Source of the DNA: Runella slithyformis DSM 19594
GTDB taxonomy: Bacteria; Bacteroidota; Bacteroidia; Cytophagales; Spirosomataceae
Length of the DNA stretch: 64,000 nucleotides
Reading direction: 5' to 3'
NCBI RefSeq assembly: GCF_000218895.1
Contig: NC_015703.1
Coordinates: forward strand, 1,177,501-1,241,500
Below are positions 54,186 to 58,325 of this stretch, piece by piece. Below the pieces are notes generated by a model that had not been told where the DNA came from, did no database searches, and worked only from the letters and a program-made list of their open reading frames with translations. The position numbers were made by a program, and so were the translations under genes. Each line of letters begins with the position of its first letter. The stretch's first letter is position 1.

Positions 54186-55544
54186 ATGCAAGTTTGGAAA
54201 TTTGGCGGAACGTCGGTAGGAAAGCCCGAACGGATGCACTCAATCAGAACGCTTATCACGGCCGACAGCGGTCGTAAAATTGTGGTATTGTCGGCCCTGT
54301 CGGGTACGACCAATGCGTTGATTTCGATGGGAGAGTCGGCCAAGGCCAACAACGAAGCCGAAGTACAGGAAAAAATAGAGGCCCTGAAAGTACATTACGA
54401 TGCGTTCATCCAAGAACTATACAGCACCGAAGACAGTCTGAAAAAAGGACAGGCCATCGTCGATAATGAATTCAATTTCATTCGTTCGGTCCTGAAAAGT
54501 CGCCCGTTTACCCTCAAGCAGGACAAAGAATTGGTGGCGCAGGGTGAAATCATGAGTACCCAACTGTTTCAGGGCTATCTGGAAGAACAGGGCGAAAGCT
54601 CCGTATTGCTGCCGGCGCTTGATTTTATGCGCATTGACACCGACGGCGAACCCGAATTGGAAACCATTGAAGCGCTTTTGGGCGATATGCTGGACCACCA
54701 GACCGACAAACAGCTCATCATTACGCAGGGATTCATTTGCCGCAACCCTCGCGGTGAAGTGGACAACCTCAAACGCGGCGGCTCGGACTATACCGCGTCA
54801 TTGATCGGCGGTGCCATTCGGGCCGAAGAGATCCAGATCTGGACCGACATCGACGGAATGCACAACAATGATCCACGCATTGTAAAGCGTACGTTCCCGA
54901 TCCGTGAGCTCACTTTTGAAGAAGCCGCCGAACTGGCGTATTTCGGGGCTAAAATTCTGCACCCAAGCACTATCACGCCCGCCAAAATGCGCGGTGTACC
55001 CGTGCGTTTGAAAAACACGATGGAGCCGCAGGCCTTCGGTACGTTGATTGCCACCACCACCACCGACCGCGAGATCAAGGCCATTGCCGCCAAAGACGGC
55101 CTTACGGCTATCTACATTCACTCAACGCGTATGCTGAATGCCTACGGTTTTCTGCGTCGGGTGTTTGAAATCTTTGAGAAATACAAAACGCCCGTCGATA
55201 TGATCACGACCTCCGAAGTGTCGGTCTCGGTCACCATCGACAATGATACGAACCTAGCCGAGATCACCGCTGAGTTGAGTGAGATCGCTGACTTGGAAGA
55301 ACACGACCGCGATCTGTCCATTATCTGCATCGTGGGTGATTTTAAAGCCGACAAAGAAGGCATTGCCCTGAAAGTATTCGACGCCATGAAACACATCCCG
55401 ATCCGAATGATTTCGTACGGTGCGTCAGAGCATAACCTGTCGATCCTGGTGTGGACCAAAGATAAAGCCGATGCGCTGAATGTGCTCAATGAGCGCTTAT
55501 TCTACTACGAAGATGCCATGAAGAATATTTTCACGGCTCAGTAG
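54186..55544 (+). CDS. lysC: Aspartate kinase (monofunctional)
   Basis: 452 residues. Kinase domain: MQVWKFGGTSVGKPERM (P-loop-like), VVLSALSGTTNALI, TQGFICRN...LKRGGSDYTASLIG (substrate binding) and IWTDIDGMHNNDPRIVK. Two ACT domains in the C-terminus (IYIHSTRMLNAYGFLRRVFEIFEKY and LSIICIVGDFKADKEGIALK). It phosphorylates aspartate, opening the pathway to lysine/DAP, threonine and methionine; the ACT pair implies feedback control. It is not fused to homoserine dehydrogenase. The REP-rich transposase region begins 20 bp downstream. Confidence 0.93.
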   Translation: MQVWKFGGTSVGKPERMHSIRTLITADSGRKIVVLSALSGTTNALISMGESAKANNEAEVQEKIEALKVHYDAFIQELYSTEDSLKKGQAIVDNEFNFIRSVLKSRPFTLKQDKELVAQGEIMSTQLFQGYLEEQGESSVLLPALDFMRIDTDGEPELETIEALLGDMLDHQTDKQLIITQGFICRNPRGEVDNLKRGGSDYTASLIGGAIRAEEIQIWTDIDGMHNNDPRIVKRTFPIRELTFEEAAELAYFGAKILHPSTITPAKMRGVPVRLKNTMEPQAFGTLIATTTTDREIKAIAAKDGLTAIYIHSTRMLNAYGFLRRVFEIFEKYKTPVDMITTSEVSVSVTIDNDTNLAEITAELSEIADLEEHDRDLSIICIVGDFKADKEGIALKVFDAMKHIPIRMISYGASEHNLSILVWTKDKADALNVLNERLFYYEDAMKNIFTAQ

Positions 55545-55565
55545 TGGAATTTTACCTTTGCTATG

Positions 55566-56200
55566 GTCAGGGCTAAAGCCCTTCACATTGTAGAGATGCC
55601 GGCTCCCCCGGCCTAAAGGCCGGAGTTAAAAGAGCAGGCAAGACAGCGAGTACACGCCTCCCAAAAAACCCGTGCCTTCGAGCCGGGGAAAGAGCAGGCA
55701 AGACAGCGAGTACACGCCTCCCAAAACCCCGTGCCTTCAGGCCGGGGAAGAGCAGGCAAGACAGAGAGTACACGCCTCCCAAAAACCCCGTGCCTTCAGG
55801 CCGGGGAAGAGCAGGCAAGACAGAGAGTACACGCCTCCCAAAAAACCCGTGCCTTCAGGCCGGGGAAAGAGCAGGCAAGACAGAGAGTACACGCCTCCCA
55901 AAACCCCGTGCCTTCAGGCCGGGGAAGAGCAGGCAAGACAGAGAGTACACGCCTCCCAAAACCCCGTGCCTTCAGGCCGGGGAAGAGCAGGCAAGACAGA
56001 GAGTACACGCCTCCCAAAACCCCGTGCCTTCAGGCCGGGGAAAGAGCAGGCAAGACAGAGAGTACACGCCTCCCAAAAACCCCGTGCCTTCAGGCCGGGG
56101 AAAGAGCAGGCAAGACAGAGAGTACACGCCTCCCAAAACCCCGTGCCTTCAGGCCGGGGAAAGAGCAGGCAAGAAATAACACAAGGGCTTTAGCCCTGAC
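55566..56200. repeat. Repeat module 1 bounded by 18-bp inverted repeats
   Basis: Bounded on the left by GTCAGGGCTAAAGCCCTT (55566-55583) and on the right by its exact complement AAGGGCTTTAGCCCTGAC (56183-56200). Inside the left edge is a second palindrome CCGGCCTAAAGGCCGG (55608-55623), then a tandem array. The boundary sequence itself forms a 6-bp hairpin (AGGGCT-AA-AGCCCT). The module lies between the aspartokinase gene and the transposase gene. Confidence 0.85.
55632..56175. repeat. Tandem array of about nine 58-60 bp units
   Basis: Units start at GAGCAGGCAAGACAG near 55632, 55692, 55750, 55809, 55869, 55927, 55985, 56044 and 56104, with a partial tenth at 56163. They differ mostly in the length of an A-run after CCTCCC and of the A-run after GGGG, plus GCGAG/GAGAG variants. 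Each unit contains the imperfect palindrome CCCCGTGCCTTCAGGCCGGG, a version of the CCGGCCTAAAGGCCGG hairpin at the module edge. Unit length is not a multiple of three, so apparent open frames across it are not genes. Confidence 0.9.
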
Positions 56201-56213
56201 AAAACAACGTACT

Positions 56214-56648
56214 ATGGCTTTCGTCAAAATATGGATTCATGCAGTTTGGGGAACCAAAAATCGTGACGGCCTTCTTGAAAAAGGCAAACGTGAAAAATTG
56301 TTTGCCCATATTAGAGAAAATGCCCGCGCAAAAGACATCTATATAGATTTTATCAACGGTGTGGAAGACCATATTCATTGCTTGTTAACGCTCAATGCCG
56401 ATGCAACAATGGCAAAGACCATGCAACTCATTAAAGGGGAAGCTGCTTATTGGGCTAATCAGGAACAATTGTTTCATAAAAAACTTTATTGGGCGGATGA
56501 ATATTATGCTGTATCAGTCAGCGAATCGCAAATTGAAAAAGTAAGAGCGTATATTCGCAACCAGGAAGAGCATCATCGAAAAAAGACCTTTGCCGAAGAA
56601 TGTCAGGAGTTCATAAGCAAATATGGATTCTATGTAAATCAGGGCTAA
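56214..56648 (+). CDS. Y1 HUH transposase, IS200-like / RAYT-like (REP-associated tyrosine transposase)
   Basis: 144 residues from ATG 56214 (MAFVKIWIHAVWGTKNRDG). Transposase_17 (Y1_Tnp) domain: the HUH metal motif is HIH in NGVEDHIHCLLTL, and the catalytic tyrosine is in KVRAYIRNQEEHHRKKTF. Enzymes of this class cut single-stranded DNA beside hairpins and attach to it through Tyr. There is no tnpB or second gene. It is flanked on both sides by palindromic repeat modules (55566-56200 and 56639-56930), and its last codons (Gln-Gly-stop) are inside the right-hand boundary repeat. This arrangement points to a REP-mobilising, domesticated transposase rather than an ordinary IS200. An upstream frame through the repeats is open but not real coding. 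Confidence 0.9.
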   Translation: MAFVKIWIHAVWGTKNRDGLLEKGKREKLFAHIRENARAKDIYIDFINGVEDHIHCLLTLNADATMAKTMQLIKGEAAYWANQEQLFHKKLYWADEYYAVSVSESQIEKVRAYIRNQEEHHRKKTFAEECQEFISKYGFYVNQG

Positions 56649-56930
56649 AGCCCTTAATAGTCGTAGAGACCCCGACAACCCCGGCCTAAAGGCCGGAGTT
56701 AAAAGAGCAGGCAACGAAGCGAGTATACGCCCCCCAAACCCCGTGCCTTCAGGCCGGGGGAAGCACAGGCAACGCAGAGAGTCAGAGAGTGGACGCCTCC
56801 TCAAACCTCTCGCTTAAAGGCCGGAGTTAAAAGAGCAGGCAACGCAGCGAGTATACGTCTCCCCAAACCCCGTGCCTTCAGGCCGGGGAAGAATAAGACA
56901 AACGCACCACTCAAGGGCTTTAGCCCTGAC
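56639..56930. repeat. Repeat module 2 (right of the transposase)
   Basis: Starts with TCAGGGCTAAAGCCCTT (56639-56655) and ends with AAGGGCTTTAGCCCTGAC (56913-56930), again inverted. Inside are the CCGGCCTAAAGGCCGG hairpin (56681-56696) and three diverged units of the array (near 56705, 56761 and 56833), with GCAACG in place of GCAAGAC. The stop codon of the transposase (56646-56648) lies in the left boundary. Confidence 0.85.
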
Positions 56931-56945
56931 GATAGCCGCGAATAT

Positions 56946-56995
56946 GTCAGGGCTAAATACCGACTGCACCGACCAAAAAGCCGGAGTTAAAAGAG
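56946..56995. repeat. Degenerate third module
   Basis: GTCAGGGCTAAA (56946-56957) followed 28 bases later by AGCCGGAGTTAAAAGAG, the usual sequence after the CCGG hairpin. The hairpin's left half has decayed (ACCGACC) and no right boundary is present, so this is a truncated copy. Confidence 0.6.
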
Positions 56996-57010
56996 GAATA
57001 AACAACAATG

Positions 57011-57034
57011 GCTGAATCGATATTTCGATTCAGC
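57011..57034. terminator. 10-bp hairpin upstream of serS
   Basis: GCTGAATCGA (57011-57020), loop TATT, TCGATTCAGC (57025-57034), 23 bases before the serS ATG. It may be a leader hairpin of serS or end transcription from the repeat region; no T-run. Confidence 0.45.
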
Positions 57035-57056
57035 TCTTACAAATTAATGATTTACA

Positions 57057-58325
57057 ATGCTACAACTGAATTTTATCCGTGAAAACCGCGACCTGACAAT
57101 CACGGGTTTAGAACGCAAATATTTTAAAGGAGCTGCCGAAGCCGTTGACAGACTTTTGGGATTGGACAGACAGCGCCGCGATACCCAAGGGGAACTCGAT
57201 GCCACGTTATCCCAATCCAATACCCTGGCTAAGCAAATCGGGCAGTTGATGAAGGAAGGAAAAAGGGAGGAGGCTGAAGCCGCCAAGTCCCAAACCGCCA
57301 CGCTGAAAACACGCGCCAAAGCCCTGGAAGAGAGCCTTAAAGAAGTTGAGGTACAATTACAGGCTACGTTGGTCCTGTTGCCCAACCTTCCCCACGAAAG
57401 CGTGCCGCCGGGCCGCACCCCCGAAGAAAACGTAGAAGTGTACACGTGGGGCGAAAAGCCTAACCTACCGGAAGGCTCCAAGCCACATTGGGAACTGATC
57501 GAGCAATACGACATTATTGATTTCAAACTCGGCACCAAGATCACGGGCGCGGGTTTTCCCGTATACAAAGGCAAAGGTGCGCGGTTGCAGCGGGCCATGA
57601 TTCAGTTTTTTCTGGACCAAGCGGTGGAAGCAGGCTATCTGGAAATTCAGCCGCCGATTCTCATCAATGCCGAATCAGGCTTTGGTACGGGGCAGTTGCC
57701 CGACAAAGAGGGCCAAATGTACCACGCCACCGCCGACGACCTGTACCTGATCCCGACCGCCGAAGTGCCGATCACCAACCTGTACCGCGACGTCATCGTG
57801 GCCGAAAACGACCTTCCGATCAAAAATGTAGGCTATACGCCCTGTTTTCGCCGTGAGGCGGGCAGCTGGGGTGCACACGTGCGCGGCCTGAACCGCTTGC
57901 ATCAGTTTGACAAGGTAGAGATCGTACAGGTACGCAAAGCCGAAGAATCGTATCAGGCACTCGACGAAATGGCCGAGCACGTCAAAGGACTGCTTCAAAA
58001 GTTGGAATTGCCCTTCCGCATCATCCGTCTTTGCGGCGGTGATATGGGCTTTACGTCGGCGTTGACGTTTGATTTTGAAGTGTGGTCGGCGGCGCAGGCC
58101 CGCTGGCTGGAATGCAGCTCAGTCTCTAACTTTGAGACCTACCAGGCCAATCGCCTGAAGCTGCGCTATAAAACCGAAGGCAAAACGCAACTGCTTCATA
58201 CCCTCAACGGCTCGGCGCTGGCATTGCCCCGCATCCTGGCGGCATTGCTCGAAAACAACCAAACGCCCGAAGGTATTCGCATTCCAAAGGCATTGGTGCC
58301 GTATTGTGGCTTTGAAATGATTTAA
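57057..58325 (+). CDS. serS: Serine-tRNA ligase
   Basis: 422 residues. N-terminal coiled-coil arm (residues ~25-100, DRQRRDTQGELDATLSQSNTL...), then the class II core: motif 1 region GARLQRAMIQFFLDQAVEAGYLEIQPP, motif 2 CFRREAGSWGAHVRGLNRLHQFDKVE, and motif 3 LNGSALALPRILAALLENNQ. It charges tRNA-Ser. Length is typical. It starts directly after the repeat/transposase region and ends in two terminator hairpins. Confidence 0.96.
   Translation: MLQLNFIRENRDLTITGLERKYFKGAAEAVDRLLGLDRQRRDTQGELDATLSQSNTLAKQIGQLMKEGKREEAEAAKSQTATLKTRAKALEESLKEVEVQLQATLVLLPNLPHESVPPGRTPEENVEVYTWGEKPNLPEGSKPHWELIEQYDIIDFKLGTKITGAGFPVYKGKGARLQRAMIQFFLDQAVEAGYLEIQPPILINAESGFGTGQLPDKEGQMYHATADDLYLIPTAEVPITNLYRDVIVAENDLPIKNVGYTPCFRREAGSWGAHVRGLNRLHQFDKVEIVQVRKAEESYQALDEMAEHVKGLLQKLELPFRIIRLCGGDMGFTSALTFDFEVWSAAQARWLECSSVSNFETYQANRLKLRYKTEGKTQLLHTLNGSALALPRILAALLENNQTPEGIRIPKALVPYCGFEMI

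Follow-up and report, generated by a model that had tools for sequence, protein, structure and literature searches.

A probable REP-like system in Runella slithyformis, in which an IS200-related Y1 enzyme is associated with a double-hairpin repeat of its own

The question of how mobile transposases of the IS200 type became resident enzymes that go with dispersed hairpins is raised by a locus of Runella slithyformis DSM 19594 in which a Y1 (HUH) transposase gene, here called tnpA, lies among hairpin repeats, with the genes for aspartate kinase (lysC) and serS as its neighbours. The window, i.e. the whole stretch of 64,000 nucleotides that was analysed, is part of a genome of 6.92 Mb. We think, with a probability of about 0.7, that this is a REP- or REPtron-like system built on an IS200-related, low-copy class-1 Y1 enzyme with its own double-hairpin repeat. 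As far as comparison of sequences goes, this reading is carried by a gene that lies between inverted modules, by sharp intergenic copies of these modules, by the co-occurrence of gene and module across genomes, and by a gene that stays where it is while the modules disperse.

The 17-mer TCAGGGCTAAAGCCCTT occurs exactly at 55567-55583 (+), 56183-56199 (-), 56639-56655 (+) and 56913-56929 (-), which agrees with a preliminary description that had placed the same palindrome of 17-18 bp in inverted orientation at 55566/56183 and 56639/56913. With up to 3 mismatches, 5 matches are found in the window versus 0.14 expected. The hairpin that had been assigned to each module is present as well, CCGGCCTAAAGGCCGG being exact at 55608-55623 and 56681-56696. 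The two modules described earlier indeed exist as inverted pairs, but each of them is a pair of smaller double-hairpin units of 69 nt, and the 18-bp palindrome is only half of such a unit. A covariance model recognizes four full modules, arranged as two inverted pairs A-B...B'-A', one on either side of tnpA (Table 1). The A' part of module 2 stops 13 nt upstream of the tnpA ATG, and the stop codon, TAA, is situated inside the loop of hairpin A of module 3. The left inverted pair is filled by a tandem array of 59-nt units that is made from the B' half of the module, most copies possessing a degenerate B'-type hairpin (CCGGCCTGAAGGCACG on the - strand). We take this array to be a later local expansion, and a 305-aa open frame that runs through it into tnpA is taken as chance. 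The copy number of the 59-nt minisatellite may differ between strains. An Rfam search of 55400-57100 returned just two sub-threshold matches (E 0.67 and 0.84).

Table 1. Features of the tnpA locus (window positions 55566-56995; scores are those of covariance model R1).
Feature	Position	Strand	Remarks
Module 1 (A-B)	55566..55634	+	hairpin A 55569-55582, hairpin B core 55608-55623, tail TTAAAAGAG; 77.8 bits
Tandem array	55629..56174	.	9.3 copies of 59 nt, 96% matches
Module 2 (B'-A'), closing the left inverted pair	56130..56200	-	55.3 bits
tnpA, Y1/HUH transposase homologue	56214..56648	+	144 aa
Module 3 (A-B)	56638..56707	+	74.7 bits; hairpin A gives the tnpA stop codon
Two weak, overlapping partial modules between modules 3 and 4	56730..56835	.	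17.4 and 18.4 bits
Module 4 (B'-A'), closing the right inverted pair	56859..56930	-	54.1 bits
Decayed module 5, ahead of serS	56946..56995	+	repeat copies at 56947-56963 and 56957-56995

When the dispersed copies are aligned, the module of 69 nt has the order RTC, hairpin A, about 25 nt, hairpin B, TTARARGAG. Hairpin A is AGGGC-TAAA-GCCCT, hairpin B possesses an 8-bp stem and likewise a TAAA loop, and both have the same polarity. The model alignment was made from 20 modules, with omission of the near-duplicate L067 and of two modules in which hairpin B is shifted by one base. In 17 aligned modules, 90.5% of the hairpin cells pair and 6 of the 13 pairs change on both sides. The hairpin covariation score of these 17 is 0.243 versus 0.077 after shuffling, and none of 500 shuffles scored as high; a measure based on further pair types was not above the shuffles (186 of 500). 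Folding of the module DNA gives modest z-scores (-0.9 to -4.35), and for one of six modules hairpin A is missing from the best fold. The edges were assessed with 29 dispersed modules, which are the matches with E up to 4e-11, at 19 loci of the own genome and of a second Runella genome, G063, weaker matches being omitted. They are sharp: the information content is 0.88-1.93 bits at the first three positions and 0.80-1.45 bits at the last three, compared to 0.2-0.5 bits at the five positions left of the module and 0.3 bits or less at the five right of it. These copies are largely intergenic, as 27 of the 29 are not under an open reading frame of 100 aa or more.

The suggestion that the modules are spread over the genome proved correct. 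The covariance model finds 33-38 of them in the own genome, and this as well as all other copy numbers is a lower bound, because only part of the first-look candidates was scored (the best 150 of 740-1665 per genome, and 42 in a second run). The sequence AGGGCTAAAGCCCT has 10 exact genome sites, 4 of them in the window, with 0 for the reversed control, and CCGGCCTAAAGGCCGG has 5, including the 2 in the window; with 2 mismatches the latter gives 10+9 sites versus 5+6 for the control. Module matches at E<=0.1 occur in all 13 Runella genomes, at lower bounds of 38 in the own genome, 46 in G119, 38 in G086, 34 in G095, 25 in G103, 18 in G075, 15 each in G031 and G063, 11 in G111, 10 in G121, 9 in G122, 7 in G123 and 6 in G050. 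Among 49 matches listed for three genomes, there are 12 neighbour pairs within 250 nt, of which 11 are inverted and 4 belong to the tnpA locus.

The gene itself behaves differently from a dispersed element. In five of the 13 Runella genomes (own, G031, G063, G095 and G119) tnpA lies between lysC and serS, the proteins encoded in this slot being 76-94% identical to that of the window, and the order lysC-tnpA-serS is also found beyond Runella, namely at L014 (Emticicia), L015, L016 and L151. In five others (G050, G123, G103, G075 and G121) lysC and serS are adjacent and tnpA is missing; the gap then holds an inverted module pair in G075 and degenerate pieces in G103 and G121, and no alignable footprint in G050 (50 bp) and G123 (45 bp). 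In the remaining three, lysC was not found in the stretch fetched. This pattern across genomes indicates that the gene is inherited in place and lost, and that the modules come and go. In G122, a relative of tnpA with 58% identity (L051) adjoins serS, no lysC being present in the stretch fetched; its position suggests that the slot may have held different lineages of the gene.

A clean empty site was found at none of four places compared, namely L007, L110, L006 and the lysC-serS gap. At L007 the neighbouring intergenic DNA is too diverged. The L110 slot holds a module in G063 and G123 and only a remnant of A in G050; in G031 and the own genome its occupant is an unrelated repeat family, GGCCTGAGGCCTGATAATAGTCGTCACTC, which makes the slot look like a hot spot for small repeats. 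At the L006 site, a partly decayed module is common to five species, the intergenic DNA of G111 being too diverged. Judging from such decayed shared copies, modules could outlive the gene. Three Runella genomes without a clade-a gene nevertheless possess many modules (at least 38 in G086, 25 in G103 and 18 in G075). Both observations would also suit an alternative in which the hairpins are an independent class of intergenic repeats or terminators that gathers round the gene, or that is moved by another enzyme.

The wider distribution argues against this alternative. A protein match at E<=1e-8, which covers both Y---Q--HH lineages treated below, is present in 90 of 121 genomes of the family, and a module match in 45 (with 42 candidates scored per genome). 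When the clade-a gene is called by eye at a best E of 8.5e-27 or lower (48 of 121 genomes), gene and module occur together in 34 genomes, the module alone in 11, the gene alone in 14 and neither in 62 (Fisher p about 6e-10, kinship ignored); with the genus left out, the numbers become 28, 7, 14 and 62 (p 1.3e-9, kinship again ignored). When 29 loci of the family were searched around the gene, modules matched at E<=0.05 in 25 and not in the other 4. Relatives from named genomes were represented by the best 80 of at least 591 stretches, mostly from Bacteroidota and Ignavibacteria and with 52-94% identity, and all counts on named relatives given here refer to these 80. Hairpins with a stem of at least 6 number 223 within 300 bp of the gene versus 57.7 in dinucleotide-shuffled sequence. 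A hairpin with a TAAA or TGAA loop lies within 400 bp at 70 of the 80 loci and at a distance of 1000-1800 bp at only 5, despite the larger far windows (114,961 bases versus 62,607 near the gene); TRAA hairpins of stem 6 are missing near the gene in 10 of the 80. Their density is 3.50 per kb near the gene versus 0.147 beyond 1000 bp, a 24-fold difference, and one loop class dominates, with TAAA at 106, TGAA at 74 and the next loop at 3. Moreover, a hairpin of this kind encloses the stop codon of the gene at 23 of 110 clade-a loci (two of these loci are double counts). Clustering, loop class, stop codon and co-occurrence together make an independent repeat class improbable.

The loops TAAA and TGAA themselves begin with stop codons, and in those 23 loci the loop is the stop of the gene. 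Among the 80 relatives, TRAA-loop hairpins point outward more often than inward (158 versus 76), and of the 32 outward pairs that share a polarity and lie within 140 nt, 18 have loops 36-43 nt apart. A strict outward A-B pair is found at 16 of these 80 loci only; the double hairpin is therefore clear in Runella and its nearer kin and less general elsewhere, and the more widespread trait is the TRAA-loop hairpin. Hairpin likeness tracks protein likeness weakly (Mantel r 0.16, reached by 0 of 2000 permutations, 109 loci), and r is 0.06 for pairs under 70% identity. Both the 110 loci of the stop-codon count and the 109 of the Mantel test include places that are duplicated between two collections (L010/L135 and L014/L136). 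A plasmid collection contained 7 records with a relative of the gene and a phage collection 1, none above 60% identity.

The encoded protein raises a second alternative. As had been noted from its reading frame of 144 codons, it is a Y1 transposase homologue with an intact HIH motif and catalytic tyrosine: it carries DHIH and YIRNQEEHH, with Y113 as the catalytic residue, and matches Pfam Y1_Tnp with E 5.7e-25. The tyrosine motif Y---Q--HH recurs in 79 of the 80 named relatives (best 80 of at least 591 stretches), L206 having H for Q. The protein exceeds the cut-off of the IS200 transposase profile NF033573 (61.9 versus 55), its structure is predicted with confidence (mean pLDDT 86.4), and the top PDB matches of the predicted fold are the TnpA proteins of ISDra2 and IS608, from E 2.3e-9. 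It could thus be an ordinary IS200/IS605 element that is now immobile, with the hairpins as its own ends and the scattered units as decayed remains, and indeed the two same-polarity hairpins per module recall the left and right ends of such an element. However, the genome contains no near-identical copy: the next best is 55% identical, followed by one with 31% and a broken copy, so that the identical multi-copy gene that would have spoken against the preliminary description is not found. Furthermore, the flanks of tnpA are inverted and not of the same polarity, its place between lysC and serS is kept across genera, and the dispersed 69-nt units have their own edges and none of the 29 examined was accompanied by transposase pieces. 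No tnpB is present among the neighbouring ORFs examined. We consider an immobile IS200 element slightly less probable still than an independent repeat class.

That the locus is a canonical RAYT with its REPs is very improbable. The layout of a low-copy gene, inverted palindromes and BIME-like inverted pairs is the same, some gammaproteobacterial REPs have TTTA or TTCA loops (PMC2817692 and PMC8266576, in their accessible parts) and the fold also matches TnpA_REP 4er8 (E 6.9e-6), but this match ranks only 30th in the PDB, behind ISDra2 and IS608, the RAYT model NCBIfam NF047646 gives 29.4 bits at a cut-off of 80, the tyrosine motif is Y---Q--HH and not Y---NP, and in 0 of 17 modules does a GT[AG]G lie 6 nt or less from the foot of a hairpin (B on the + strand, both hairpins on the - strand). 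The earlier assignment to a REP/RAYT-like system hence holds with regard to a low-copy Y1 enzyme and to inverted repeats scattered over this genome and those of relatives in the manner of a REPtron; by its defining traits the enzyme is no RAYT, and this part has to be given up. In 7 of the 17 modules a GT[AG]G does occur in spacer bases 23-26, at nearly the same position and off any hairpin foot, which may be due to chance, inheritance or a displaced guide.

The own genome contains further Y1 genes. A second Y---Q--HH gene with 31% identity (L003, C4:1,377,297-1,377,713, repeats to 1,378,385) adjoins its own repeat family GCTTCGGAGAAGCG, of which the genome has 19 exact sites, 10 being adjacent to the gene, versus 0 for the control. 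A third gene with 55% identity (L002, C4:2,954,907-2,955,326) is flanked by another type of hairpin, CCTCCAGCTAAAGCAGGAGG, plus a degenerate hairpin A, and a broken gene in two frames (L004/L005, C4:5,543,406-5,543,812) lies beside hairpins of the CCCTAACGGGATA type. Some flanking hairpin, of varied types, is found at most of 21 clade-b loci, a count that has no control set. In a small unrooted tree, L003 and its kin group among the IS200 sequences and separately from the clade of the window protein (97/98); the depth of the RAYT split is unsure, because the tree has one RAYT, on a very long branch. The separate position of L003 suggests that two Y---Q--HH lineages may have acquired their repeats separately.

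For the preferred reading, a REP-like system with a double-hairpin repeat, a mechanism can be proposed from what is known of IS608, ISDra2 and TnpA_REP, which, according to the available part of PMC8266576, contact loop or stem irregularities, the loop of the Marinomonas Mb REP being TTTA. On the other strand, the module hairpins have TTTA/TTCA loops, as do some gammaproteobacterial REPs (PMC2817692, in part), and hairpin B is preceded on its 5' side by a conserved CTCYTYTAA, at the place of the GTAG of REPs and of the guide of IS608 (PMC5934647, as far as accessible). These features lead us to expect recognition of that strand, cutting near the edges and spread in trans. The tnpA enzyme would bind folded single-stranded DNA as a dimer, like IS608 TnpA, and would recognize the folded strand, presumably the one with TTTA/TTCA loops, in part by the loop. 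It would then cut at or near the RTC and GAG edges of the module, and joining of the cut module elsewhere would spread modules in trans, often as inverted pairs. A more far-reaching proposal, which we hold only tentatively and at slightly less than even odds, is that the A-B module unites both "ends" of a minimal single-strand element (two same-polarity hairpins, with RTC and GAG as edges), and that an enzyme of the IS200 class which itself stays in place moves it in trans. The whole would then be a REP system separate in origin from the RAYTs, or an extant link between IS200 and RAYT/REP. It would be widespread in both Bacteroidota and Ignavibacteria, and, as part of the same tentative proposal, it would have escaped notice because a GTAG foot was demanded in searches.

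A class-1 enzyme with its own dispersed repeat would be an independent case beside the RAYTs for how transposases become resident. It would also supply candidate substrates for an enzyme group that, in the accessible part of its description, was published without any, and some of the intergenic hairpins of Bacteroidota that lack an explanation could go back to such a system. Among the matches listed, which are mostly freely readable papers, we found no literature on repeats for this enzyme group.

The closest published group is TnpA-Y1 subclass 1.2 of Quentin et al. 2018 (PMC6006769, here and below in its accessible part), with the signature Y---Q--HH and DH[IV]H, about 148 aa, an occurrence in Bacteroidetes, a low copy number and low identity between copies. 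The product of tnpA agrees with it in Y---Q--HH and DH[IV]H, in a similar length (144 aa), in its occurrence in this phylum, and in low copy number and low identity, membership being judged by motif alone, and given the separate position of L003 in the tree, subclass 1.2 may hold one or both Y---Q--HH lineages. In contrast to tnpA, which is flanked by cognate hairpin repeats, subclass 1.2 is listed in that publication with "REP: no" and as mostly lacking ends of the IS200 type; the automatic REP search of that study required GTAG or GTGG near the foot (PMC6006769). With the IS200/IS605 elements IS608 and ISDra2 the system shares the nearest protein sequence and fold, and its two same-polarity hairpins per module resemble their left- and right-end hairpins. 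It is unlike them in having neither near-identical copies nor a tnpB among the neighbouring ORFs examined, in the inverted units that flank tnpA where these elements have one same-polarity hairpin per end, and in a gene location that is kept between species. From RAYT/TnpA_REP it differs by Q--HH in place of NP and by a foot without GTAG, and from the REPs of RAYTs by a double same-polarity hairpin of fixed spacing and perhaps by copies in the tens (33-38, a lower bound) rather than hundreds. What it has in common with RAYT/TnpA_REP and their REP, BIME and REPIN sequences is a low-copy gene between inverted hairpin repeats that are dispersed, often as inverted pairs.
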